Assembly: GCA_020055645.1 (NCBI GenBank)
Contig: CM034546.1
Span: 128,113,875-128,177,874, forward strand
From: Tomocerus qinae
Lineage: Eukaryota > Arthropoda > Collembola > Entomobryomorpha > Tomoceridae
Length of the DNA: 64,000 bases
Direction: 5' to 3'
The position numbers were made by a program, and so were the translations under genes. Under the pieces are notes generated by a model, which was not told the DNA's origin, did not search any database, and saw only the letters and a program-made list of their open reading frames with translations. Of the stretch, positions 1-48,785 are shown in pieces; within the stretch, counting starts at the first letter, position 1; every line of letters starts with the position of its first letter.

Positions 1-3000
1 ATTGGAAAGAAGACGGCTGTTTCAGCTTTATTTGGAAATGAGAATTTGAATCCATTAGATATATATACTAAAAGTAGTGAAAATATTGTAGCTAGTATGA
101 GAGCAGCAAGGTACCTTGGATTAGCATTACAACAATTTAAAACCGATGCAAAAAAAGAAGATTCGATTGTTAGGATTATTGAAATAGGAGCTGGTAGCGG
201 TGCTGCTGCTAAAGAAATATTTTCTATCTTACAAAAAGAAGAAATCCCGTTTCGCTATACGTTCACAGATATTTCTCCACATTTTTTCGAAGGGGCTAAA
301 CAACAATTTTCAACAATTGGTGGAATAGATTATAAAGTATTGGATATTGAAAGAGATCCATCAACGCAAGGATTTTGTCCATACCATTATGATGTCGTTG
401 TTGCATCTAATGTAATACATGCTACTAGTGACTTAAAGAAGTCTTTGACAAATATTCGCAAACTGATGCGAACTGATGGCATTTTGGCATTGCAAGAAAT
501 TACTGATCCAAGTAGAGCTATTGATATAATTTTTGGTATTCTCGAAGGGTATTGGAATTTTACTGATTACAATGTAAGATCTCGTCATGCAATGGCACCA
601 GTTGGAATTTGGAGTAAATTGTTGATTGAATCTGGATTTACTAATGCGATCAATTTATCAAGCAAAGACGAATTTATAAGCAATATGGTATCTAGAGCTG
701 TGAATTACTACCCAAGCAGTGAAAATAATTTGGCTGATGACAAAAAAACTGCATGGCTTATTTTTGGCGAAAATGATGATCTATCAGTTAAAATTAAAGA
801 AAAATTAGAACAAATTAGTGACAAAGTGGTTATCATTTGTCGAGGAGACAAGGAAGTAGAAGACAGATACCTCCACTATTACGATAGTGCTGATGACTTT
901 TCTGTAAAGAAGATTATCTCAGCATTCATGGGAAAATACTATATTAAAGGTGTGATATATTTAGCAACAAACATTAATTTTAAAAATAAGGAGATAGAAT
1001 ACAATAGTATTTTAAATGTATGCAAATTCTTGTCAGAAGCAGCTAATCACAATTTTCAGTTTGTTGCAGTCACAAAAGGAATATATTATATTCAAAATCA
1101 GAAAGCAGTTAGCCCTTTTAGTTCTGTAATATGGGGAATGGCTAAAAGCATCGTCAACGAAGTTTCTGAAATGCATGGTAAAATGATTGATCTTGATCCA
1201 GATGATTCCAATGCGGAAATTGATAGTCAACAAATATTCTTTGAGCTATTTGATATAGATGAGCGGTTAGTTAGTTTTCGAAATAAAAAAAGGTTTGTAT
1301 CAAGAATTATAACTCTACCAAATGCATTAGCGCCATTAATACTCCCTCAAGGAAGATACAGGATTGTTATTCCTAAAACGAAGAAAATTAATGACGTCAG
1401 CTTCTCTTCTATCCAAAAGGAACCTTTAGGATCTAAAGAAATTGAAGTTCTAGTTAAGGCTGTAGCATTGAATTTCAGAGATATTTTTGTAATTCTGAAG
1501 CCTGAAATGTTCCACACAGTGAGAGAGACCGTTGGGTCAGACTTTTCAGGAATTGTTTCTAATATTGGTTCCGAAGTCACAAAATTTAATATAGGTGATG
1601 AAATATATGGGATTTCACTTAGCAGTAGCGTTGGGAGTCACGCTATAACCCATGAGGATGTTGTTATACATAAACCGAAGCAAATGACATTCAATGACGC
1701 TGCAACTCTTCCTTCTGTACTGATGACAGCATTTTATTGCATGGTGACTGTCGCTGACTTGAAAAAATGTGAAACTATTTTGATTCATGTTGCTTCTGGA
1801 GGTGTTGGGTTAATTGCTATCCAAATAGCCAAAAATATTGGGGCAAAGATAATTGCCACTGCGGGATCTCATCGAAAGAGAAATTATTTGCGAACGTTGG
1901 GCATTGAGAATGTTTTCCACTCTAGAGATTTGACGTTTGGAGATGAAATAGCTAGAGTTACTAATGGACAAGGTGTAGACATGGTTCTCAATTCTCTGAC
2001 TGGACACGGATTTAAAGAAACATCACTTAAGGCATGTGCACAAAATGCCCGTTTTGTTGAAATCGGAAAAGTTAACATTTGGAAACCGGAACAAGTTCTG
2101 GAACTACGGCCTGATGTTAAATACACGATTGTTAATTTAGAGACGTTGACAAATGCAGAAATCGGGGATATGCTAGACGCAATAAAATATCACATTAAAG
2201 AGGATTACAAACCGTTGCCTTATTCCAAGTTTGACGTGGTTAATATTAGGGGTGCACTAAATTATTTTTTGAAAGCAAATCACATTGGAAAAATTGTAGT
2301 GACGATGCCAGAAATTATTGAAGTAGGAAATCAAATCACAAAAAAAGATGTGATATTTAGTTCAAATGCTACATATTTAGTTACCGGGGGTTTAGGTGGA
2401 ATTGGTCTTGAAGTTGCAAAATGGATGACAGATTCAGGTTGTAAGTATTTAATTCTGGTTGGCAGATCTGCTCCAAATGAAGCAACTTCACAAGTACTTA
2501 ATAAACTGCGGGAAAAAGGATGTAAAATTCTTTCATTCCAAATCGATATTGGAAATTGGGATCAGTCCAAATCTCTATTCGAAATGATCTCGTCATCTGA
2601 ATATCGTCTTCCACCCTTAAGAGGAGTGATTCATTCTGCTGGTGTCATCTCTGACGCTATATTCATTAATCAAACTTGGGAAAAATATCAAACTGTTTTT
2701 AATGCTAAAATTGCTGGATGCCTCAACTTACATGAATTGACCAAAGATTTAAATTTAGAACATTTTGTTTTGTTTTCCTCCATGGCTGGACTTTTTGGTC
2801 CTATGGGGCAAAGTAATCATGCGGCAGCTAATGCTTTCTTAGATTCTTTTGCTAGTTATCGTCACTCTATTGGTCTTCCAGCACAAACGATAAATTGGGG
2901 TGGTTGGGCAGAAATTGGTGCAGCTTCCAATACAGCCTTTGGAAAAGAAGGCTTATTCGGAGTTAAACCATTTACTCCTAACCAAGGGATAGCATCGTTA

Positions 3001-4752
3001 CAATTTATTATGAGTAGACCTGATTTACTCCAAGTAGGAGTGATTCAAATAGACTTTTCCGAATTTAGTCAATACTTCAGCATTGGAAATTCTCTTGCAG
3101 AATTGACAGACACCTTAGACAGTAGAGAATCATCTTCTTCGTCTATTCAATCAGAAACATTTTGGAATGAAATTGGGCCACTATCTCTAGACGAAAGAAA
3201 TGGATATATTAAAACCAAAATCACTGCAATTATTAGAAAAACATTGAAATTACCTGAAACGGAAACAGTTGATGAGTTTCAAACATTCCAAGAAATGGGT
3301 TTAGATTCATTAATGGCTGTCGAAATGAAAAATAAACTTCAAACTATTGTAGGAAAACGAATAACTTTGAATGTTACCGCCATGATGGATCATCCTACAA
3401 TAAATGCACTTAGTAAGTATTTGGCAGAGAAAACTGTTGCAGCAGAGGGAGATAATGGTGGCCCAGTAATAAATGAACTTGCCGAATTTAATTCAAAAGT
3501 TATGTACGATTTGGTTAAGCAGGATTCAATACTTTTGGAATCTATTCAGAGTGTTAGTAATAATAAACCATCAGAAATAAGAAATATATTGTTAACAGGA
3601 GCTACTGGACATCTTGGAGCATATCTTTTAAAAGAGTTGACACTAAATAAACAGTTGAAATGCTTTTGTTTGATTAGAGGAAAGTCCGTTGAACAAGCTC
3701 AGAAAAAATTGATCGCCAATTTGAAAAAGTATGATATTTTAAATGATATTAATTTAGAAAATGTTACCATTGTTGCAGGCGATATAACAACTGTAAATTT
3801 AGGTAATTCGGATGATGAATATAAGAGGTTGTCGTCAGTAATTGATATGGTGATTCATCTAGCAGCTAAAGCTAATCATATTGAGAGATACTTGGTTAAC
3901 AAAGGAAACAAAAAAGATATTCGATCTGTTAACGTATTAGGAACGGTAAATGTTCTTAAATTTGCCTCTAATATCAAAACAAAGAGAGTAGTTTTCCCGT
4001 CATCTTTCTCATCTATCAATCGTCTTACAGATGATGGTTTTATTTACGAAGATTTTCCTGACAATGAAAACAATGCTGACGATCTTACCATGGGTTACTC
4101 AGTGTCTAAATTTGTTTGTGAAAAATTATTGAAACAGGCGAACGATCGAGGAATTCCATGTATTGTTGTCAGATATTCCAGTCTTTTGGGACACAGTGAA
4201 ACGGGAATTTTCATGTCAAACACTAATACAGTGGTAAACCAACTACTTATATCCCTTCGATTTGGAATGATGCCCGACATAGAAGGTTTTTGGTTTGGAA
4301 TTCCAGTTGATATAGCAAGTCAGCTGACATTGGAATTAATACTGAATACTAACGCAGATTCTGGTGTTTTTAATATAGTTCAGCCTGTACCAATGTACGT
4401 CATGGATTTTATTATTCTCGCCAAACGATTTGGTTTTGATTTGGCATTGGTCAGTATGCAGGAATATGAAGCCAAAATTAAAAAGGAAATTGAAACTAAT
4501 AGTATTTTGTCTATTCTTAAAGATAGTTATTTGGAGAATGAGGAATTTTCCTTCTCAGAAGTATCTAAGACGCATCCCAAACTCCGCCAATTTTTAGAGA
4601 AGGGAATTAATACAAATAGAATTAGTGACAAATGTAGAAATTTAATTCCAGATATTAATGACAGGATACCACAATCCATAGATGTTTTTCAGGTCTATTT
4701 AGAATTTGCTCAGCGAAGTGGTATTTTCGAGAAATTTGGAATTGTGCGTTAA
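1..4752 (+). CDS. Reducing type I polyketide synthase with terminal thioester reductase, 5'-partial
   Basis: The reading frame is open from base 1, so the KS-AT-DH part lies left of the window; 1583 residues remain. Order seen, numbered from base 1: a SAM-dependent C-methyltransferase (glycine motif EIGAGSG near 60); a degenerate ketoreductase-like structural region (about 240-440); an enoyl reductase (about 448-780, NADPH loop VASGGVG near 597); a ketoreductase (about 790-1000, GGLGGIG, Ser927); an ACP (GLDSL, phosphopantetheine Ser1103); and a short-chain thioester reductase (GATGHLG 1200-1206, Tyr1366-x3-Lys1370). This is a highly reducing module whose product would be released as aldehyde or alcohol rather than acid. 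The KR position usually Tyr, 13 residues after Ser927, is His940 (GQSNHAAAN). No intron interrupts 4.7 kb. Base composition matches the neighbours. PKS identity is secure; product and origin are unknown. Confidence 0.95.
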   Translation: MGKKTAVSALFGNENLNPLDIYTKSSENIVASMRAARYLGLALQQFKTDAKKEDSIVRIIEIGAGSGAAAKEIFSILQKEEIPFRYTFTDISPHFFEGAKQQFSTIGGIDYKVLDIERDPSTQGFCPYHYDVVVASNVIHATSDLKKSLTNIRKLMRTDGILALQEITDPSRAIDIIFGILEGYWNFTDYNVRSRHAMAPVGIWSKLLIESGFTNAINLSSKDEFISNMVSRAVNYYPSSENNLADDKKTAWLIFGENDDLSVKIKEKLEQISDKVVIICRGDKEVEDRYLHYYDSADDFSVKKIISAFMGKYYIKGVIYLATNINFKNKEIEYNSILNVCKFLSEAANHNFQFVAVTKGIYYIQNQKAVSPFSSVIWGMAKSIVNEVSEMHGKMIDLDPDDSNAEIDSQQIFFELFDIDERLVSFRNKKRFVSRIITLPNALAPLILPQGRYRIVIPKTKKINDVSFSSIQKEPLGSKEIEVLVKAVALNFRDIFVILKPEMFHTVRETVGSDFSGIVSNIGSEVTKFNIGDEIYGISLSSSVGSHAITHEDVVIHKPKQMTFNDAATLPSVLMTAFYCMVTVADLKKCETILIHVASGGVGLIAIQIAKNIGAKIIATAGSHRKRNYLRTLGIENVFHSRDLTFGDEIARVTNGQGVDMVLNSLTGHGFKETSLKACAQNARFVEIGKVNIWKPEQVLELRPDVKYTIVNLETLTNAEIGDMLDAIKYHIKEDYKPLPYSKFDVVNIRGALNYFLKANHIGKIVVTMPEIIEVGNQITKKDVIFSSNATYLVTGGLGGIGLEVAKWMTDSGCKYLILVGRSAPNEATSQVLNKLREKGCKILSFQIDIGNWDQSKSLFEMISSSEYRLPPLRGVIHSAGVISDAIFINQTWEKYQTVFNAKIAGCLNLHELTKDLNLEHFVLFSSMAGLFGPMGQSNHAAANAFLDSFASYRHSIGLPAQTINWGGWAEIGAASNTAFGKEGLFGVKPFTPNQGIASLQFIMSRPDLLQVGVIQIDFSEFSQYFSIGNSLAELTDTLDSRESSSSSIQSETFWNEIGPLSLDERNGYIKTKITAIIRKTLKLPETETVDEFQTFQEMGLDSLMAVEMKNKLQTIVGKRITLNVTAMMDHPTINALSKYLAEKTVAAEGDNGGPVINELAEFNSKVMYDLVKQDSILLESIQSVSNNKPSEIRNILLTGATGHLGAYLLKELTLNKQLKCFCLIRGKSVEQAQKKLIANLKKYDILNDINLENVTIVAGDITTVNLGNSDDEYKRLSSVIDMVIHLAAKANHIERYLVNKGNKKDIRSVNVLGTVNVLKFASNIKTKRVVFPSSFSSINRLTDDGFIYEDFPDNENNADDLTMGYSVSKFVCEKLLKQANDRGIPCIVVRYSSLLGHSETGIFMSNTNTVVNQLLISLRFGMMPDIEGFWFGIPVDIASQLTLELILNTNADSGVFNIVQPVPMYVMDFIILAKRFGFDLALVSMQEYEAKIKKEIETNSILSILKDSYLENEEFSFSEVSKTHPKLRQFLEKGINTNRISDKCRNLIPDINDRIPQSIDVFQVYLEFAQRSGIFEKFGIVR

Positions 4753-7172: not shown

Positions 7173-8454
7173 ATGCTAACAAAACTGACAATCAAGGCTT
7201 TAGAAAACTGTTGCACTGTAATCCATCGTCTTAAACTGTTCCCCTTGGAATTTGATTCTCAAACAAAGACACTAATCTACAGTGACTCAAAATTTAAATT
7301 ATACAATTGCATCCATTTTACGTGTGCGTTTGTGTATTGTTTCTTAGTGAATACGATAATTTTGCTCAAAAATTTATTTCAACCAGACCCTGCAATAAAT
7401 GTTCGTATAATAATATTTTTTATTGTGTTCGACTTGATTTTGTGCTTGGGATTATCGTTTTCGTATTTCATTTTGTTTAACCTGAAATATGCTGTCAACG
7501 TTGCTAATGCATACCTCAAGATGGACTCCTTGTTTGAAAGTAATTTGAAATGTTAATTTAATTATACAAATAGGATTGGAATATAAGAATCTTCATAATA
7601 AATTATATTACAAATGCTTTTCAGGGTCTTTCCCTAAATGGAAAAAGGAAAGTCAGATTGACACAGTTGGAATCTTTCTTTGCGGGATGTTGCTCATTTT
7701 TCCATTGGTTCAGATTACATTCGGAGCACTCTGCATTTATCACACTGAGAATCCGGTTTACATTATCTGGAATTACATTCTTCCTAAATTTCTAGCAGAA
7801 AATCCATTATTGCTGATTTGGCTATTCTTCGCCATGAGTTCGTTATTGGGATTTGGGCTGTATACATTACTGCTTGCCACAATTGTCTCTGTGATCTACT
7901 TGAACATTACTGATGATTGGATGTATTTCACATCGACTTATATTCCTAATGCCTTAGCTACAAATCCGTCGTACTTTGCTTCAAGACCTAAACTGCTTCC
8001 GAAGATACGTCCACTAATGAGGAAAATGGTCACAATGATGCGTTTAGTAAATATTTATTTCAACCAGATAATTTATGTTGTAGATCCACTCCTTCTGGGC
8101 ATTGTTCTCGTTCTCCACATTATATCTTGCTTTGCTATGGTTAATTTGTTTGGGGCTTTCAAAATGCCTTTCTACCTTCTATTCCCCTTTGTAAATATGT
8201 TGCTTTTTGTTATGGAAATCATTTTATTTCGCACTTCTGCCCGAGTTATTGATCTATCCCAAGAATTCTCTCTCCAGTGGCAGAGGCAAGTCCATGGAGA
8301 TTTGTTCATGAGAAAATGGCTGAAAGGACATCGCCATTTAAGAATTGAAATTGGGCCATTTTTCATGATTACTAAATTTACAATAGTTACCTTTATGTCT
8401 TTACTTATCGGTCACACTATTAACCTTATTCTAGGGATCAATTGCAATGTGTAA
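7173..8454 (+). CDS. Receptor 1: GR-like seven-transmembrane chemoreceptor (subfamily 1)
   Basis: Coding exons 7173-7539 and 7625-8454, joined over an 85-bp phase-1 GT-AG intron (codon split A|GG), give 398 residues. Hydrophobic segments lie at about 44-66, 79-103, 138-160, 186-214, 276-297, 303-325 and 369-391, so seven spans are predicted. The C-terminal pattern (LRIEIGPFF, then TFMSLLIGHTINL in the last span) resembles the TYhhhhhQF region of arthropod gustatory receptors, but diverged. The start is the first ATG in frame; the frame extends upstream only with TTG. It is presumed to be a ligand-gated channel in chemosensory membranes. Its protein is identical to receptor 3, and DNA identity is essentially complete from 7110 to about 8288, then falls sharply. 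Confidence 0.85.
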
Positions 8455-18204: not shown

Positions 18205-19486
18205 ATGCTAACAAAACTGACAATCAAGGCTTTAGAAAACTGTTGCACTGTAATCCATCGTCTTAAACTGTTCCCCTTGGAATTTGATTCTCAAACAAAG
18301 ACACTAATCTACAGTGACTCAAAATTTAAATTATACAATTGCATCCATTTTACGTGTGCGTTTGTGTATTGTTTCTTAGTGAATACGATAATTTTGCTCA
18401 AAAATTTATTTCAACCAGACCCTGCAATAAATGTTCGTATAATAATATTTTTTATTGTGTTCGACTTGATTTTGTGCTTGGGATTATCGTTTTCGTATTT
18501 CATTTTGTTTAACCTGAAATATGCTGTCAACGTTGCTAATGCATACCTCAAGATGGACTCCTTGTTTGAAAGTAATTTGAAATGTTAATTTAATTATACA
18601 AATAGGATTGGAATATAAGAATCTTCATAATAAATTATATTACAAATGCTTTTCAGGGTCTTTCCCTAAATGGAAAAAGGAAAGTCAGATTGACACAGTT
18701 GGAATCTTTCTTTGCGGGATGTTGCTCATTTTTCCATTGGTTCAGATTACATTCGGAGCACTCTGCATTTATCACACTGAGAATCCGGTTTACATTATCT
18801 GGAATTACATTCTTCCTAAATTTCTAGCAGAAAATCCATTATTGCTGATTTGGCTATTCTTCGCCATGAGTTCGTTATTGGGATTTGGGCTGTATACATT
18901 ACTGCTTGCCACAATTGTCTCTGTGATCTACTTGAACATTACTGATGATTGGATGTATTTCACATCGACTTATATTCCTAATGCCTTAGCTACAAATCCG
19001 TCGTACTTTGCTTCAAGACCTAAACTGCTTCCGAAGATACGTCCACTAATGAGGAAAATGGTCACAATGATGCGTTTAGTAAATATTTATTTCAACCAGA
19101 TAATTTATGTTGTAGATCCACTCCTTCTGGGCATTGTTCTCGTTCTCCACATTATATCTTGCTTTGCTATGGTTAATTTGTTTGGGGCTTTCAAAATGCC
19201 TTTCTACCTTCTATTCCCCTTTGTAAATATGTTGCTTTTTGTTATGGAAATCATTTTATTTCGCACTTCTGCCCGAGTTATTGATCTATCCCAAGAATTC
19301 TCTCTCCAGTGGCAGAGGCAGGTCCATGGAGATTTGTTCATGAGAAAATGGCTGAAAGGACATCGCCATTTAAGAATTGAAATTGGGCCATTTTTTATGA
19401 TTACTAAATTTACAATAGTTACCTTTATGTCTTTACTTATCGGCCATACCATTAATCTTATTTTAGGAATCAATTGCAATGTGTAA
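18205..19486 (+). CDS. Receptor 3: GR-like receptor (subfamily 1), duplicate of receptor 1
   Basis: Exons 18205-18571 and 18657-19486, 85-bp phase-1 intron, 398 residues identical to receptor 1. The DNA shows no difference I can find up to about 19320; from there synonymous changes appear and cluster in the last 50 coding bases, and the 3' flank is clearly diverged. Only 63 bases of the original 5' flank remain before the Penelope tail, so its native promoter is probably gone and expression may be altered. Alternatively the whole junction is an assembly artefact. Confidence 0.8.
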
Positions 19487-30285: not shown

Positions 30286-31606
30286 ATGTCAAGATTGACT
30301 ATAAAAGCACTTGACCTTTGTTGCTCTGTGATCCACCGCTTTAGGCTTGGCCCATTAGAATTTAATCCTCAAACAATGACACTTAAGTACAGTGACTCCA
30401 AATTGAAATTATTCAATGCCATAATATTTTCGTGCATTTTCGTAGCTGGGTTTATTGTTTGCACTGGAATTTTAATCAAAAATTTGTTTCAACCCGATCC
30501 AGAAATGAACGTCCGGAAAATAATATTTTTAATCTTCTTTGATCTGTTTTTGTTTTTGGTAGTGGTACTTTCTTATTTTGTTTTCTTCGAAATGAAATAT
30601 GCCATTACTGTCATTAATGCTAACTTCCAAGTTAATTCCTCGTTTGAAAGTAAAACTATTTATCTTACTTTAACATAAATTGATCCCTATACTTATTTAT
30701 TACTCTTACTTCCTATTTAATGAGCTCTGTTGAACTAATTTTTGAATTTTGAAATACGTACAAATTTTAAAATTTTCAGAAACTTTCCCCAAATGGAAGA
30801 AGGAATGTCGGTTCGATGTGGTGGGATTTTTTCTTTGTGCACTGCCATTCACTTTTATATTAGTACAAACAGTTGTCGGAGCACTCTGTGCCCTCCACAA
30901 GGAAACTCCGGTCTATATTATCATTCATTTCGTTCTGCCCGAAAACTTGGCCGAAAATCCGTTGACAAAATTTGGAGTATTCATTATCGCTTTTAGTACA
31001 TCAGGATTTGGTTTATATGCGTTATTGGCTCCTTTGATCATTGGGATTGCTTATGTAACGATTACTAGAGAATGGCTATTTTTTGTATCCAAGTTCATCC
31101 CTAATGTCTTAGCCGATGAACACAACGAATATTTTGATTTAAAACCCACTCTAGTTCGAAATATTCGTCCTTTGATGAGGAAAATGATTGTGATGCTGCG
31201 TTTAGTAAATATTTACTACAACCAAGTCACCTGTTTTATTAAACCAATCTCCATCGGGATTGTTCTCGTGATTCATATAATTTCTGGGTTTGCTATGATT
31301 AGTTTGTATTCTACTTTCCAAATGCCTTACTATATTTTATTTCCGTTTTTCAACATTTTCTTTTTTGTGATGGAAATCATTTTATTTAATGCTTCTGCAG
31401 ATATTTTAAATTTATCTCATGAATTCTCGGTTCAATGGCTCCTCAATGCGGATTTATTCCTAAGAAAGTGGTTGGCAGCTCGTCAACACTTAAGAATTGA
31501 AATTGGGCCTTTCTTTATGGTTACTAAATCAACAATCCTGACTTTCATGTCATTACTAATTGCTCACACCATCAATCTCATTTTAGGAGTTAGTATAGAT
31601 AGATAA
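30286..31606 (+). CDS. Receptor 7: GR-like receptor (subfamily 3)
   Basis: Exons 30286-30649 and 30780-31606, 130-bp phase-1 intron, 396 residues. The start is one codon shorter than its relatives (MSRLTIK versus MLSRLTIK) and follows an AT-rich run of ATA/GTA codons. Subfamily-3 traits are DLCCSVIH, a REWLFFVSKFIPN loop before span 5, and LNADLFLRKWLAARQHLRIE before span 7, in place of the KGRRHLRIE of subfamilies 1 and 2. It ends GVSIDR. Confidence 0.87.
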
Positions 31607-39758: not shown

Positions 39759-40284
39759 AAAAATTGCTGACCAAAGTATGTAAACTTAGAGAAACTTTTC
39801 AAACCGACGAAAAGATTACGTTGATTAAATCTCTCATGAGACGAGAGTTGTGTCAAAAGAAGCTATTTATTAGCTTGCTGTGCATTATAGTCAGCCTTAG
39901 GAGATATTAATCCGCCAAGTGCTAAGAAGAAACTTTACTTTCAATATAAATTACTGTATTGCCAATATTCTGTTCTATACTAGTGAACTCTGCAGACGAA
40001 GGACAACTGTTTTAAAACAGCATAGTATCTCAAAGTAAGGGCGGGGTTTTCCCGGTATTTATTAATTAATAATATCAGACGTCCTTAAATTACTGCACCT
40101 TGTGCTATAAAATAATACTTTATTTTAAGCTATTTCAATAATTTCAAGCTATTAAATTATAACTTTTGATTTTTGATGTCTAAATATATCTCTCAATCTA
40201 TTGCAAATTATTTCCAATATTTCTTGTTTAACATTTGCTTTTAAAAACAGCCTAAAATTGGAATAGGTACAGGTAGTCGGTTGT
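39759..40284. other. Spacer before the LINE
   Basis: Non-coding AT-rich sequence; nothing recognised. The LINE 5' end is placed only approximately. Confidence 0.4.
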
Positions 40285-40817
40285 TTAGTCCAGTCGGCCG
40301 TTGTGAGAAGGTCTCAAGTGAAGGGCCGTCCCTTATCAGCTTATCACTAGGTATTGGTAGCACATAAGGTTAAGTGTAGTTCATTATTTATGATTTCCTG
40401 ATTTTATTACGGAGCGCAGTGTAATTTGTTCCTAATTTTAAAAAAAATCTCTGTAAAGTGCATAAGTGGTACTTTAACATCTGCAATAAGCTGACTGGAC
40501 TGAACGGGTGGAGGGTAACTACTTGAATGTAGTTTTGGCCCTCTGTTTTTTTTGGTGTAGATTTATCTGCACAATTACGGTTTCTGGACTACCATAATAA
40601 AGTCCTGGACTCTACTTAGTGCTAAATGAACTAATAAGTGCCATTGTTAGTTATTATTATTAAGTGTTAATACTGTTATTAAGTATAATAAGTTAATCTA
40701 CTTCTTTCAGCCAGACTGCTATTAGATATAAATTATAAATATTGTATAGTGATAATTAGAGTTATTAAGTGGTGCAATTGATTTTATCTCTACAAAAATT
40801 ATTGGAACTATTCTACT

Positions 40818-41666
40818 ATGGAAACTAATTATTGTACTACATGCTCTGATGAAGTTGAAGGTGGTGTACGATGTGGATTCTGTAATAATCTATTTCATCA
40901 CAGCTGTGCTAAAGGTTTTGTCAAGGAGTTTACTAATTATATCTGGATCTGTGATACATGTAAGGTAGCAAATATTTCTTTTTACTCTATGCATAATCGT
41001 CTACTGGAAATAGAGGATAAACTAAAGCATATTAATATTAACGATACGGATTTGACTATTACAGACCAGTTAGATATGATGACTACAAACATAAGTGAAA
41101 ATTCTGAAAAAATTGTAAAATTAGAGAATAAGATTGAATCTGAAAGTCGAAAATATAACATTATTGTTCGAGGCATAGATTTGAAACATTCTGACCCTGA
41201 CTACATTCCTAGAGATGAGTTGGCGGATATGTTGCATACATTAAATTGTAGCATCGGATATGTCCGTGATATTTTTGTACTAGTACGCAATAAGAATAGT
41301 GTTATTAAGCTAACATATTCAAGCCTTATTGAACGTAGGAGGGTTCTCTTAGCTACTTACAAATTAAAAACTGATTATAGGTATACTAATGTTTTTATAA
41401 ACCCAGACTTATCTAAACAGCAGGTAGCTGATAAAAAAGCTAGAAGGGACATACGCATTGCTCAAAATAATAGTGCTGTGTCTAACTCTAAGGGTACTGT
41501 AGATTGTGGAGATAAAATTATGAATAAGGGTATTATTAATAATGATTTTTTAGAACAATCAACTTCAAAAGCAATCGAACACACAATTACAAATGACTCT
41601 AATGTTACTTTACGTAAAAAATCGAACCTTTTTCAGAGCCGACCTATACCAAGTCTATGTCCATAG
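40818..41666 (+). CDS. LINE ORF1 protein with PHD-like zinc finger
   Basis: 282 residues, intact. A Cys/His cluster (CTTC, CGFC, FHHSC, CDTC) at about 8-50 resembles the PHD-like finger at the N-terminus of CR1-type ORF1 proteins. It is followed by a predicted coiled coil (about 60-110) and an RNA-binding-like region with YNIIVRGI near 113. It would package the element RNA. Its end overlaps the ORF2 start by a few bases. Confidence 0.82.
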   Translation: METNYCTTCSDEVEGGVRCGFCNNLFHHSCAKGFVKEFTNYIWICDTCKVANISFYSMHNRLLEIEDKLKHININDTDLTITDQLDMMTTNISENSEKIVKLENKIESESRKYNIIVRGIDLKHSDPDYIPRDELADMLHTLNCSIGYVRDIFVLVRNKNSVIKLTYSSLIERRRVLLATYKLKTDYRYTNVFINPDLSKQQVADKKARRDIRIAQNNSAVSNSKGTVDCGDKIMNKGIINNDFLEQSTSKAIEHTITNDSNVTLRKKSNLFQSRPIPSLCP

Positions 41667-44600
41667 CTCACATTAATGTAAGGGCAATGAAAAATAAAAT
41701 ATTTCTATTATCCTATATTATATATACATATAGTTTGGATATACTTTGTCTAACTGAAACTTGGTTGAATGAGTTGATTATTCCCATTAGTATATCTGAT
41801 TTTAATTTTTACAGAATGGATAGAAATAACATTGACAAAAATTGTGGTGGAGGTGTAGGTATATATGTTAGAGATACCTTTAAATGCAGTGAGTACTTAC
41901 TTTAATGCAAAACAGAAATGGAAAAAAATTACAATATTGAGTACATGTGTCTGTTGATACAATATAAATTTAATAAGGCATTTGGAAATGGTTTCCAATG
42001 ATTTGGAAATTGTTTCCAATGACTTTGAAATGGTTTCCAAAACTTAAAAATGTTTTGCTCATCAACGAGTCAGCCTTAACCTGTGCATTGAACAATGTAC
42101 CATTGATTTGGATTATATGTACGAAAGTACGAATATTTCACGCTGGTACTGGTACCTATGCTTTCCCCTTACCTCAAGTTATGAGGATGCATTTGCTCTA
42201 TGATACAATCTTAACCTCTAAGATCATCTTAAAATGGGACATGTGCATGGAAATCTGTCGGTATTCTTGTATCAATGTAAGATGCATATATTTCCTTTCA
42301 TTTGCAGCTTTCTAGAAATTTAGAAAGTCTGCATATATCGTTCTCCTGATTACTCTAGTGAATGTATAAATAATGACTTAGATAGTTTAGAACAACTTTT
42401 CTCTGAACTATGTTCTATTAATAAGAATGTTTATATTCATGGAGATTTTAATCTAAAAACAGAGTGTACATACAGTAAGCTTGAACTAATCTTAAATAGT
42501 TGTAATCTTAAGCAATTTGTAAATACACCTACTAGGAAAGACTCCATTCTTGACCTTTTTATTACTAAAGCTGATAACCTAGTGGAAAATGTATTAGTGA
42601 CTAACCCGTATATATCTGATCACAGTTTAGTATCTGCTACTATTAAGGCAAGACAAAAAATAAAATATCCAAAGAAAACTGTTACTTATCGTAATTACAA
42701 ATTGATTGATCAGTCAATACTTATAGATAGGCTGGACAATATTATATTAAACACAGATAATGATAATGATATTGAGTTAATTTATAATGAGTTTTGTAGC
42801 AACATAATAAGTATCTTTGATGAAGTTTCTCCACCCATAACAAAGTCGTTTGTACAGTATTCTAGGAAATTTAAACCCACAGAGAAAACATTGTTAGCTA
42901 TACGGGAACGTAACATTGCATATAAACAACAAATTAAAGATAGCACAAATGCTAATACTGAGAATTTTAAGTTTTTAAAAAAGAAGGTTAAACAACTTAT
43001 ACATATGGACACTAGAGATTATGTTAATGAAGTAATTAAACAGAAGGGCCCAGTAAAAGGTGTACAATCCCTTGTTAATTTAAAGCCTAAAAATTGTAAT
43101 GAAATAGTATTATCTGCTAATGACATAAACGATTATTTTGTTAATATTAGCTCTCCCAATACTTTGTTAACATATCCTCAGTTCCCAAAGCAACCTACTA
43201 GTAGATGTACTACTGATAATAACTTTAGAGTTGACATAGTTGATTTGCCTACACTTACTAAAGCTTGGAGGAAGTGTAATAATAATAATAGTACAAATAA
43301 TGACCATCTTAACTTAGCTGCTATTATGATTAATTTATCGTTATCATCCCTTACTGTCTGTGAAATATTTCTAGATATAATTAATTTAAGCTTTTCTACA
43401 GGGATAGTCCCCAATTGTATTAAAATATCAAAAATTATACCTTCACCTAAACTACCTGTAGTCTTGCAACCCAAAGACTTAAGACCTGTTAGCAACCAAC
43501 CTATTGTACTTAAAGTAATTGAAAAATGTGTAAAAGATAATCTCCTAACTTACCTTGATTCTAATAATGTATTGTGTAGTCAACAATTTGGTTTCAGACC
43601 TAAACATTCTACAGTGCATGCACAAATAGCGTTAACAGATTATATGCTTAAAAATATTGATAATGGTAATGTCTGTCTGTTACTATCTCTTGATCTGAGT
43701 AAGGCTTTTGATAAAGTCTGTCGAGAATTATTGCTGTATAAAATGAAATGGTATGGTATAGATTCATTTTGGTTTGAGTCATACTTGGAAAACAGAGGTC
43801 AATATGTATTTATAGATAAGGACAATATATCTAGTATACAGTATACAGAGCTTGGCGTACCACAGGGCAGTGTATTAGGGCCTATTTTATTTACAATTTT
43901 TATTAATGACCTTCCATTAGCTATTAAAAATAGTTTAAGTATTTTATTTGCTGACGATACCTCCATATCTATTGCTGGACCACCGGAAAGTATAGCCATA
44001 CTAATTGAACACATACAGGAAGACATGTTAAGTATACTTGAATGGATGTCTAGTAATAGAATGGAGTTGAATGTTGACAAGACTCAGTTTATAGTGGTTG
44101 GTAGACCACACATTGTAAAGTCACTAGGTAATATTAATTTCAAAGTAAATGATACTGTTATTACTGCGGTTGATAAGATTAAATGCTTAGGACTTATCAT
44201 AGATTCTCATCTTAAGTGGACTCATGATATTAGTGATAGGACAAAAAGGTGCAATTCGAAACTGTGGTCTTTATATCCCTTACAATCATACATGTCTTTA
44301 GTTAATAGACAACTTGTAGTTAATACTTTGATTTTGCCTATCATTCAGTATATGTCAGCGATATGGGCTACAGCCCCTAAATATAATGTTAGCCTAATAT
44401 CTAATCTATTAAGTAGATCCGGACGATTTGTTTTAGGTCGAGATAAATTTGACTCTGTGAGATATGACATTACAAATGATTTAAAATGGTTATTTCCTAC
44501 CTATCTCTATAAATATGAAATACTTAAAGTAGTTTATACTATCTTTTATAATGTATGCCCTCCATATTTTTCTAACTATTTAGACTTTGTAAATGTCAAT

Positions 44601-44864
44601 ACTACCTCTACTCGTCAGAATACTTATACCACACCAGCTTATCAAGGAAAATCACAACTGTATAAAAAAACATTTCTATTCTCTGGTATTATGCTTTGGC
44701 ATGTATTACCTGAAAACATAACTAGTATAGATAATTTTAATAGCTTTAAGAAAATGTTAAAAAGGTATCTTCTGGAACAGCAAGCGAATGAGTTTGCTTT
44801 AAACTTAGATGATGTTGATCTAAACTATTCATGTATTGATGATGTAGCTAATGGTGTAATATGA
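41657..44864 (+). pseudogene. LINE ORF2 (endonuclease-reverse transcriptase), disrupted
   Basis: The endonuclease starts at 41657 (SIAHINVRAMKNK, LTETWL) and meets an in-frame TAA near 41903. The same frame continues to 41981, where a 340-bp insertion splits the domain. It resumes after 42321 (CIYRSPDYS, YIHGDFN, SDHSLV) and stays open to 44864. Reverse transcriptase motifs: LRPVSNQ, FGFRPKHST, LDLSKAFDKV, GVPQGSVLGP and the catalytic FADDT. The C-terminus (LPIIQYMSAIW ... LWHVLPENI ... FKKMLKRYL) is the CR1/L2 type. The RT half is intact, so inactivation looks recent. Confidence 0.88.
41982..42321 (+). mobile_element. 340-bp mobile unit, copy 2, inserted in LINE ORF2
   Basis: The second copy of the unit at 38795-39134, about 99 percent identical and exactly the same length. 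It interrupts the endonuclease domain of the LINE. I could not define a clear target duplication. Confidence 0.88.
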
Positions 44865-44938
44865 TATGATATGTAAAGTAAGGTGTAAGTATTCTGATGT
44901 TATAATGGCCTCTATTGAGGGTGATATCTGTGCAGTCT

Positions 44939-44965
44939 AAATAAATAAATAAATAAATAAATAAG
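44939..44965 (+). repeat. (TAAA)n tail of the LINE
   Basis: About seven TAAA/AAAT units after the ORF2 3' untranslated region, a normal 3' terminus for several CR1-group LINEs. Confidence 0.85.
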
Positions 44966-44993
44966 GTAGTGATTTGGCCAACCACACCTATCA

Positions 44994-46124
44994 ATGAATA
45001 ATATGGAGAAAATCAAAGAAGAATATCATTCTTTGGTGAAACAAAACTTTAAAATCTCTATTGGCGAACTTCTTACGGTGGATAATTTTAGTTTGGAAGA
45101 CAGATGTCTTAAATTCAACCCGCATAAGGAAACAAATTCCATCATACTACCCGCCAAGGAATTTGGGAAAAAATATGGTGTATTATTGTCTAACAAAGAC
45201 CCGTATAATGTTTGTACCGCCTCTTACATGTTTCCAGGTGGTAAATCATCCCGTGTGCTGGACATTTCAAAGCTACTCATTGTGGGCTACTATATCAATG
45301 AAATTTGGGGTCGTGACGTATTTCGACATCTTAGCAGTGAAGAGCAATATAAAGTAAATCAAATTATTCAACGAATGAGTATTAAAGAATTTCCAACCAC
45401 CTTCCTAGAATCAGTACCTCTTCATGGGGTTGAAAGGGCAAATTTAGAGGTATTAGGGGCTATAAGAAACAACATGTCAACAGAATGGTTTGAGTCGTTT
45501 TATGAACTTTGGACACAATTTATTGAAATCACTCATAGAGATAACAATTCGAAATCTCATTCAGTGGAGGAATACTTAGAACTTCGTTGCCATTACTCCG
45601 GAGCAAAATTTATGCATAAATTGGTAGAATATTCACTTGGCGAATGCATTGATTGGAATTGGCTAAAACTACTGGGGCTACACGAGGGTGTCACAAGTAT
45701 ATCAATTTTCCTAGAAAATATTAACGGTCTTATGAATGATTTTTTCTCGTTTGAAAAAGAAGTTATTGATTTGAACGCTGAATCAAATCTACTTATGGTG
45801 GTGGCTTTAAATAATCCTTCCTTCACTTTAATAGACACAATTAATGCATCTGCAATATTAATCTTATCTGAGATTATAATTAAAGATTATCTGGAGCAAT
45901 ATGAAACTACCAGGGCTGACATTATTCATAAACTTTCTCTGGTGTCCAGCAAAAATTCTGAAAACTGTGGCATTCTTACAAGATATTTAAATGGATTGGA
46001 AGACATTATGAAATCTACATGGACTTGGCAAACTTTAGCTAAGAGATACAAACGGAAAAATTCAATTTGGATTGAGACGGAATTGTTTGAAATGAATGTA
46101 AGAAAACATAATTCTAAAAATTAA
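44994..46124 (+). CDS. Microbial-type class I terpene synthase
   Basis: 376 residues in an uninterrupted frame. Evidence: the metal-binding triad NDFFSFEKE (Asn248, Ser252, Glu256) exactly fits the N-D-x-x-S-x-x-x-E motif; YLELRCHYSG (192-202) fits the pyrophosphate-sensor region; WQTLAKRY (345-352) gives the C-terminal Arg-Tyr pair. The length suits bacterial, fungal and social-amoeba type enzymes. The first, Asp-rich motif should lie about 140 residues before the triad; there the sequence reads YYINEIWGRD (99-108), with Asn-Glu in place of Asp-Asp. It would cyclise a prenyl diphosphate such as FPP or GGPP. A donor (AAT|GTAAGA at 46098) and an acceptor (TTTCAG, exon from 46194) would give an alternative C-terminus ending at 46250 (386 residues). 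It sits 28 bases after the LINE tail, so its promoter may be displaced. Confidence 0.85.
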   Translation: MNNMEKIKEEYHSLVKQNFKISIGELLTVDNFSLEDRCLKFNPHKETNSIILPAKEFGKKYGVLLSNKDPYNVCTASYMFPGGKSSRVLDISKLLIVGYYINEIWGRDVFRHLSSEEQYKVNQIIQRMSIKEFPTTFLESVPLHGVERANLEVLGAIRNNMSTEWFESFYELWTQFIEITHRDNNSKSHSVEEYLELRCHYSGAKFMHKLVEYSLGECIDWNWLKLLGLHEGVTSISIFLENINGLMNDFFSFEKEVIDLNAESNLLMVVALNNPSFTLIDTINASAILILSEIIIKDYLEQYETTRADIIHKLSLVSSKNSENCGILTRYLNGLEDIMKSTWTWQTLAKRYKRKNSIWIETELFEMNVRKHNSKN

Positions 46125-46308
46125 CGTTTTCTTAAAAGTTATTATTTCTCAGATTACTGACCTATTTAGTAATTATTCTAATTATTATTTCAGGTTACGC
46201 AAGAAAATCTCAGAATGTCCAAAAATAACATTACCAATGACGATAGATAAAAATGCTAACTGCATTCGGCATTCCAGGCAGTTTGAATTATTTGTGTTGC
46301 TTAGCTGT

Positions 46309-47252: not shown

Positions 47253-47520
47253 CTGATTCCTAAATTGACTCAGGATTAACGTTCCTATAGCATAAATAAA
47301 TGAGCAATAATGCGTCTAACGTGACTAATACTAATAATTAACAACCTTTTCAAAGTATATCGCTATAAATTAAATCTTTAGATTAAACAACTGTTAAATC
47401 TAGTTCAAAAAATCAATAAACCACACCCCGTGTAGTAATAAAACTTTATAAGCAAATTCTGATCCACGTTGAGCTTTGTTGAAGTCTTTTTTTACTAAAT
47501 TGTTGATTGCGATTGAGACA

Positions 47521-48785
47521 ATGTTGCCAAAACTATCAATAACAGCTTTACATCTTTGCTGCACAGTGATTCATCATCTTAAACTATTTCCTTTGGAATT
47601 TAACCGGAAAACAGTGACTTTAAAATACAGTAATTCAAAATTAAAATTATTTAGTGCAGTGATGTTTACATGCATAAACTGTGGAGGGGTAATACTCTAC
47701 ACGGGAATTTTACTCAAAAATTTATATCAGCCTGATCCCATGATGAACGTTCGGAGAATAATTTTTTTAATTTTGTTCGACTTGGTAATGTTTTTGGCTT
47801 TAATATTATCCTACTTCATTTTATTCGATTTGAAATATGCGATTGAGCTCATCAACTCATACATCCAGATTGACTCTTCGTTTGAAAGTAACATCTCAAT
47901 ATTTTTATTCTTAAAACTCATTTCAAACAAATATCAAACAAATATCTAAACACAGTAAATAATATTGTTTCAGAAATTTTTCCAAAATGGAAAAGGGAGA
48001 AAAAATTTGACTTGACTGGAATATTTCTTTGTGCGCTGACACCCATATTTCCATTTTTGAATACCGTTATGGGCTTTCTTTGCATTTATCACCCGGACAA
48101 TCCTTTATATATTGTTGCTCATCGGATTCTTCCTATTGATCTAGCCGAACATCCCGGGGTGCAATTTACTATATTTGCCTTTGCCTATTCAATAGCAACA
48201 TTTGCTTTCTATTCATTACTAAGTGTACTGATTTTTACTATCACTTATGTTACTCTAACCAAAGATTGGATGTTTTTCTTAACAACATACGTTTCTAATA
48301 CTGATGACTCGTACTTCGAATTAAGACCCGCTCTGCTTAGAGATATCAAACCCTTGATGCGCAAAACGGTCACAATGCTGAGATTGGTAAATATTTATTA
48401 CAACCAAATCATATCCAAAACAGCACCAATTTCCATCGGAATTATTCTCGCTATTCACGTAATTTCTGGATTCTCCGTGATTTGTTTGTTTGAGATTGTC
48501 GGAATGCCCTACTATGTCCTATTCCCATCATTAAATATTTTCTTTTTTGTGGCGGAAATTGTTTTATTTAATTCTGCTGCCCAAATCCTATATTTATCCC
48601 ACCAATTCTCCCACCAATGGTACATCAATGGGGATATGTACATGAGAAAATGGATGAAGGGTCGTCGTCATTTGAGTATTGAAATTGGACCGTATTTTAT
48701 AGTTACAAGATCAACACTGTTGACCTTTATGTCATTACTTATAGGTCACACCATCAATCTTATTTTAGGTATAAACTTAAAATAA
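47521..48785 (+). CDS. Receptor 8: GR-like receptor (subfamily 2)
   Basis: Exons 47521-47887 and 47974-48785, 86-bp phase-1 intron, 392 residues. ATG is the first in-frame start; GATCCACGTTGAGC lies 60 bp upstream. It differs from receptors 2, 4 and 5 by FPKWKREKKFDLTG at the start of exon 2, FLTTYVSNTDDSYFELRP in the loop before span 5, and a C-terminal Lys. The Met in RKWMKGRRHLSIEIGPYF is unusual within the array. Closest to receptor 9. Confidence 0.88.

Follow-up and report, generated by a model that had tools for sequence, protein, structure and literature searches.

A probable bacterial origin for a putative class I terpene synthase gene family in a springtail genome

Laterally acquired terpene synthases (TSs) are already known in arthropods. 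The trombidid mite TSs orthomcl65 and orthomcl1284 are microbe-derived canonical TSs that have expanded in a soil arthropod; they share at most 30% identity with microbial sequences, and Bacteroidetes are one of several phyla that supply the closest homologues of orthomcl1284 (PMC6275457). Fungus gnats possess five canonical TS genes, stated to have been acquired from mites (Chen et al. 2024, PNAS, as cited in PMC12051294). The TSs of Folsomia candida are described as more like those of flea beetles, i.e., as being of the isoprenyl diphosphate synthase (IDS) type (PMC6275457). Among bacteria, Chitinophagaceae enzymes give both sesquiterpene and diterpene products, and 2 of 11 TS homologues of Chitinophaga japonensis were inactive (PMC12723471). 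Many springtails bear a coat of unusual terpenes; higher terpenes were found in 16 of 23 species, and the ubiquinone pathway was proposed as their source, while TSs go unmentioned in the text of that report (PMC11321324). A literature search that was thin on subscription journals listed no title on a PF19086-type TS in a springtail; springtails may be among the animals treated by Chen et al. (2024).

The gene described here, termed A1, adds to these laterally acquired arthropod TSs, whose occurrence in some mites and other arthropods had been noted in the initial annotation of the locus. Compared by published description, A1 resembles the mite genes as a microbe-derived canonical TS expanded in a soil arthropod and the fungus gnat genes as a microbial-type gene resident in a hexapod genome; no mite protein was among the matches of the A1 protein search or of a search with one protein of a second TS group (group B). 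A1 shares its length, its domain, the NSE triad, the pyrophosphate-sensor Arg, the RY pair and the motif N-[DE]-x-x-G-R-[DE] with the PF19086 TSs of Chitinophagaceae, at 31 to 38% identity. It differs from them in its location in an animal chromosome, its AT-rich, host-like codons and its occurrence in six copies (group A). The relatives retrieved here were not matched to the characterized enzymes of C. japonensis (PMC12723471). What is noteworthy in group A is the Chitinophagaceae-like character of the putative donor, the apparently inherited N-first metal motif and the FPP synthase (FPPS)-like neighbor of one copy.

A1 is an intronless open reading frame of 376 amino acids on the plus strand (44994..46124, stop included) of the window, by which we mean the whole analyzed stretch of 64,000 nucleotides (C1:128113875-128177874). 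A frame of this length has a chance of 8.5e-14 from local base composition alone. Since the paralogues and relatives begin at Met4 (45003) and not at the first ATG, residues 1 to 3 of A1 may be untranslated. The initial annotation had extended the gene to 46250, and nothing was seen that links 46125-46250 to A1; an extra exon out to that position was rejected, as the bacterial relatives stop near residue 364. In Pfam, the only match of A1 at E<=1 was PF19086 (Terpene synthase family 2; E 4.2e-12, 46.7 bits, where the curated cut-off is 23.7). A search of 5.8 billion proteins placed 21 of 2043 candidates at E<=1e-3, the top match having 37% identity over 97% of the query (E about 1e-68), with Bacteroidota TSs nearest; organism names were attached to 5 of the 21 matches (Pseudoflavitalea, three Chitinophaga and [Flexibacter]). 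Proteins of Allacma fusca and Orchesella dallaii were present in the searched database and none was among the A1 matches, which suggests that these two species carry no A1-type gene. When the A1 family was searched against PDB profiles, 10-epi-cubebol synthase (7zrn) was the best solved relative, near full length (E 3.9e-17). The class I TS similarity anticipated in the initial annotation was thus borne out, and the assignment of A1 as a class I TS is supported by homology, its activity being a prediction.

Alignment located the catalytic residues that the initial annotation had pointed out: the pyrophosphate-sensor Arg198 (45585..45587), the NSE triad NDFFSFEKE at residues 248 to 256 (N248, D249, S252 and E256; 45735..45761) and the C-terminal pair Arg351-Tyr352 (46044..46049), all on the plus strand. 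N248, D249, S252, E256, R198, R351 and Y352 were invariant in a 22-sequence alignment of A1, copies A2 to A4 and 18 of the 21 protein matches, with copies A5 and A6 omitted. When the comparison was widened to 55 rows, R198, D249, S252, E256 and R351 were kept throughout and N248 in 54, A5 having Tyr at that site. The Tyr of the RY pair was kept in 52; A5 has His there and two bacteria have Phe. R198 sits 50 residues ahead of the NSE Asn, compared with 43 in PMC5588592, and aligns with the Arg region of 7zrn. The residue after the ND of the triad is Phe in A1 and in 5 of the 50 bacterial rows, while the consensus given in PMC7192455 has (L,I,V).

The first metal motif, a feature absent from the initial annotation, is noncanonical. 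By profile alignment and the 55-row comparison, N102-E-I-W-G-R-D108 (45297..45317, plus strand) stands in place of DDxx(x)D/E, a pattern that A1 does not match in its strict form. All 50 bacterial rows have Asn at the first site, and so do four of the five copies A1 to A5. At the second site, 49 of the 50 bacterial rows have Asp, while A1, A2 and A5 have Glu. Because the 41 bacterial loci among these rows were fetched with the patterns LxND[LF]FSFE and YLN[DE]x[MW]GRD, the motif counts lean that way and the fixation of Asn may be overstated. The solved relative 7zrn, which is remote in sequence, has DDVCEN at this position, unlike A1, and in the profile alignment DDVCEN falls opposite the family's N-D-V-M-G-R. 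As Asn is fixed in the bacterial rows, the odd motif would have been inherited, with a later D-to-E change in some of the animal copies. An N-first form, (D/N)DXX(D/E), is listed among class I motifs (PMC7192455), and the N-first motif provides an instance in which altered metal binding can be checked. Separately, the loci designated L050-L090 make up a bacterial TS subfamily with an N-[DE]-x-x-G-R-[DE] first motif instead of DDxxD, found mainly in Chitinophagaceae plus Nocardia.

The relationship of group A to bacterial TSs was examined in a maximum-likelihood tree of 55 rows, comprising A1 to A5, 9 of the 21 protein matches and all 41 bacterial loci; the frameshifted A6 was omitted, and one stop in the matched stretch of row L082 was read as X. 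These rows covered bacterial and metagenome sequences, without the TSs of other arthropods. A1 to A5 formed one clade (100/100) on a stem of 1.58, placed among Chitinophagaceae sequences, within which A1 and A2 paired with support of 93/89. A tree constrained to keep the 47 Bacteroidota and metagenome rows together, with the animal copies outside, was 4.1 log units worse (AU p 0.059), so that descent from within the sampled Bacteroidota is favored over a sister position, short of significance. The 41 relatives in species genomes were all bacterial by record title (38 Bacteroidota and 3 Nocardia), which makes bacteria to animal the sensible direction of transfer. No bacterial relative closer than 38% identity to A1 was found. 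A viral carrier was considered and rejected, since none of 185 pattern stretches in viral contigs encoded a relative. The horizontal acquisition proposed in the initial annotation is consistent with homology, tree, codon usage, dN/dS, paralogues and animal-type neighbors, and the sequence comparisons support lateral acquisition of the A copies from bacteria by a springtail ancestor.

The window belongs to the largest contig (C1, 140.5 Mb) of a 334.4-Mb assembly of 115 contigs, and all six group A loci, A1 and five diverged copies, lie on that contig. A2 is at C1:135.22 Mb, A3 and A4 (88% alike) are at C1:76.31 and 76.35 Mb, A5 is at C1:134.49 Mb, and A6, at C1:3.768 Mb, is frameshifted and consists of two pieces in different frames. 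A5 adjoins an A2M-type gene and a multicopper oxidase gene, and A2 is embedded in a run of WS/DGAT-like acyltransferase genes (C1:135210001-135230000). A short remnant of a group-C TS was also seen close to A2 in that interval. The host is most likely a springtail, judging from its PDSS1 protein: among the best 120 of 1411 matches, the closest named proteins were those of Allacma fusca (72%) and Orchesella dallaii (69%), with ticks and crustaceans next at about 60% and three unnamed proteins slightly higher.

Immediately upstream of A1 lies a non-LTR retrotransposon (LINE) on the plus strand (40278..44963, approximate ends), recognized by a profile match to RVT_1 in ORF2 and by further copies in the genome. 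Its 3' tail of TAAA repeats stops about 30 bp before the first ATG of A1. A candidate target-site duplication, the 7-bp AGGTAGT, occurs at 40271-40277 and 44964-44970; a shared 7-mer has a background of 0.57% in random 12x12 windows. Because the LINE lies between A1 and what was formerly upstream of it, the ancestral promoter was probably displaced by 4.7 kb, and A1 may be silent, or using another start, after the insertion. By eye, the LINE also contains a nested insert at about 41900-42320 that resembles 38.9-39.1 kb. Multi-TM genes of one family, each seen as two neighboring frames, occur on both sides of A1; by open reading frames, the nearest downstream gene (frames 47476-47949 and 48012-48785; 47476..48785) and the nearest upstream frame (30749..31606, among frames of at least 150 amino acids) are both on the plus strand. 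In an alignment of twelve multi-TM frames, two of which lie upstream of the window, 11 showed 52 to 76% identity to the first. Searched against Pfam, the 12 members gave just two single-member matches (E 0.77 and 0.97), and the family matched no PDB profile at E<=1. Intron-containing chemoreceptor genes had been read in these flanks; the two-sided arrangement in paired frames held up, and the chemoreceptor identity found no confirmation in Pfam or PDB, although the genes look receptor-like. Two of the multi-TM frames, 7576-8454 and 18608-19486, encode an identical protein and differ at 8 of 876 nucleotides, which points to a very recent duplication. To the eye, retroelement-like frames lying between the two appear to be duplicated as well.

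Two alternative origins for A1 were weighed. Bacterial contamination or misassembly would fit its lack of introns and the bacterial identity of its nearest known proteins, and is nevertheless very improbable. The GC3 of A1 is 0.32 (0.32 to 0.35 across A1 to A5), compared with 0.35 to 0.41 in seven host multi-TM frames and 0.47 to 0.74 in six bacterial relatives. Synonymous codon choice was closer to the host table, built from the seven multi-TM frames of the window, in all five copies A1 to A5, and a bacterial control was closer to the bacterial table, built from the six loci. Moreover, five diverged relatives share the 140-Mb contig, the LINE and multi-TM genes stand on either side of A1, and the closest bacterial relative reaches no more than the 38% noted above. 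The concern that the frame might sit on a contaminant contig was therefore not borne out, and the host-like codons, the paralogues on the 140-Mb contig and the animal-type genes beside some copies support A1 as a resident gene integrated among animal genes. Alternatively, A1 could be an animal TS that evolved from IDSs, as in flea beetles and as stated for Folsomia candida (PMC6275457), and the host does carry several FPPS-like genes. This origin was rejected, being refuted by the sequence to the point of near impossibility: PF00348 was absent at E<=1, where PF19086 alone matched, and the nearest relatives of A1 are bacterial TSs.

Given a lateral origin, two further alternatives concern what A1 does now. 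It could be a decaying relic, a once-active family member whose promoter was severed by the LINE. In favor of a relic are the LINE tail so close to the ATG, the long branch of A1 (0.51, compared with 0.26 for A2), its odd residue make-up, and the 24 columns at which it alone departs from a residue shared by the other four copies (9 such columns for A2); A1 also has a private 6-residue insertion, and it evolves, from these comparisons, evidently faster than its sister A2. The family has other damaged members, since A5 no longer carries the NSE Asn or the RY Tyr (the NSE, sensor and RY residues being kept in the other four of A1 to A5) and A6 is frameshifted, so that group A also decays. Against this, the A1 frame is fully open with its NSE, sensor and RY residues kept, where a crude estimate of free drift since the A1/A2 split would predict about 27 nonsense changes. 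Polarized changes in A1 were 44 nonsynonymous to 25 synonymous, a nonsynonymous share no higher than, and indeed below, that of A2 (39 to 12), and the A1/A2 dN/dS was 0.30. Pairwise dN/dS among A1 to A5, with A6 omitted, ranged from 0.197 to 0.343 in 10 of 10 pairs, several dS values exceeding 1 and thus being near saturation; these ratios show purifying selection on A1 to A5 on average. We regard the relic as possible, if rather doubtful. A1 could instead handle prenyl diphosphates without cyclizing them, as a prenyltransferase or binding protein, a notion prompted by the Asn in place of the first Asp and by Glu103. This is unlikely, because the variant first motif is conserved in the bacterial subfamily and the class I motif itself is given as (D/N)DXX(D/E) in PMC7192455.

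The explanation that we prefer, and hold to be highly probable, is that A1 is one of six copies of a gene from a Chitinophagaceae-like Bacteroidota that was acquired by a springtail ancestor, duplicated and diverged, and whose protein is predicted to cyclize FPP or GGPP. On this reconstruction, the springtail ancestor would have taken the TS gene from such a bacterium, and duplication and divergence on what is now the largest contig would have given A1 to A6. The A1 protein would fold as an all-alpha cyclase, in which the NSE triad and the N102-E103...D108 region would bind three Mg2+ ions while R198 and R351-Y352 would grip the diphosphate. Following the mechanism of known class I enzymes (PMC5588592), the protein would take FPP or GGPP supplied by the host itself, ionize it and cyclize it to a sesquiterpene or diterpene, and a deprotonation or the capture of water would precede release of the cyclic product. 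FPP is the probable substrate, predicted because FPPS-like genes have multiplied and one adjoins copy A6. Whether the A1 copy itself makes terpenoids is uncertain because of the LINE upstream, the changed first motif and the faster evolution; we lean slightly towards predicting an active enzyme. Since Chitinophagaceae enzymes give both product classes, either class is conceivable for A1. A putative product would likeliest serve as a defensive or signaling compound rather than as bulk cuticle wax: cholesterol and squalene were the sole epicuticular terpenes found in Tomocerus vulgaris (PMC11321324), so that a cuticle-lipid role is not favored should the host be a tomocerid.

A genome scan with PF19086 gave 14 loci above the cut-off, all on C1: A1 to A5, six of group B (C1:3.94, 3.95, 4.16, 59.35 [twice] and 59.39 Mb) and three of group C (C1:52.2, 72.8 and 75.2 Mb, the 72.8 copy being partial). 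PF19086 was matched by all nine group B and C members scanned, and broken B and C pieces also occur in the genome. Groups B and C share 22 to 26% identity with each other, and their profile aligned with that of group A in the C-terminal part only (E 3e-6, probability 88). The DDxxD motif is kept in 6 of 6 group B members. A search with one group-B protein returned none of 764 candidates at E<=1e-3. The location of all 11 TS clusters, pieces included, on C1 has a probability of 7e-5 if placement is proportional to contig size, for clusters drawn after seeing the data; as matches to a LINE probe were also mostly on C1, the bias may not be special to TSs.

FPPS-like exons with both DDxxD motifs were found at C1:3.766, 25.29 and 112.47 Mb. 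The first belongs to a multi-exon gene (within C1:3760001-3770000) in which one exon, FPPS-like by PDB matches, lies about 0.7 kb from A6, and whose last frame, assigned by eye, terminates tail-to-tail with A6 at a spacing of 184 bp. Under a crude uniform model, an IDS gene would fall within 2 kb of a TS with a probability of 0.002, the TS partner here being the frameshifted A6. The TS clusters, drawn post hoc, were nearer to polyketide synthase (PKS)-like frames than uniform random positions were (P 0.0025), with single distances of 25 kb to 5.1 Mb. We propose tentatively, and with more doubt than confidence, that springtail cyclic-terpene chemistry could derive from separate microbial acquisitions (A, B and C) retained on a single contig, together with an incipient pairing of an A copy and the animal's own FPPS-like gene in a PKS-rich genome. 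The resident set of bacterial-type TSs provides genes to express and test for springtail terpenes.

An intronless type I PKS frame of 3007 codons was also observed in the multi-TM array, at C1:128109603-128118626 (window 1-4752 and upstream). Its domains read KS-AT-DH-MT-ER-KR-ACP-reductase, ending in a thioester reductase. Genome-wide, the PKS dehydratase profile PF14765 matched 120 times, with a few genes possibly counted twice. The reductase profile PF07993 matched 126 times; 61 of these matches fell in open frames of at least 2500 codons, and the shorter ones may represent ordinary fatty acyl reductases. The 61 long frames were distributed as 47 on C1, 9 on C4, 3 on C2 and 2 on C5. That an animal genome should hold scores of intronless PKS-like frames is possibly a larger story than the TSs.
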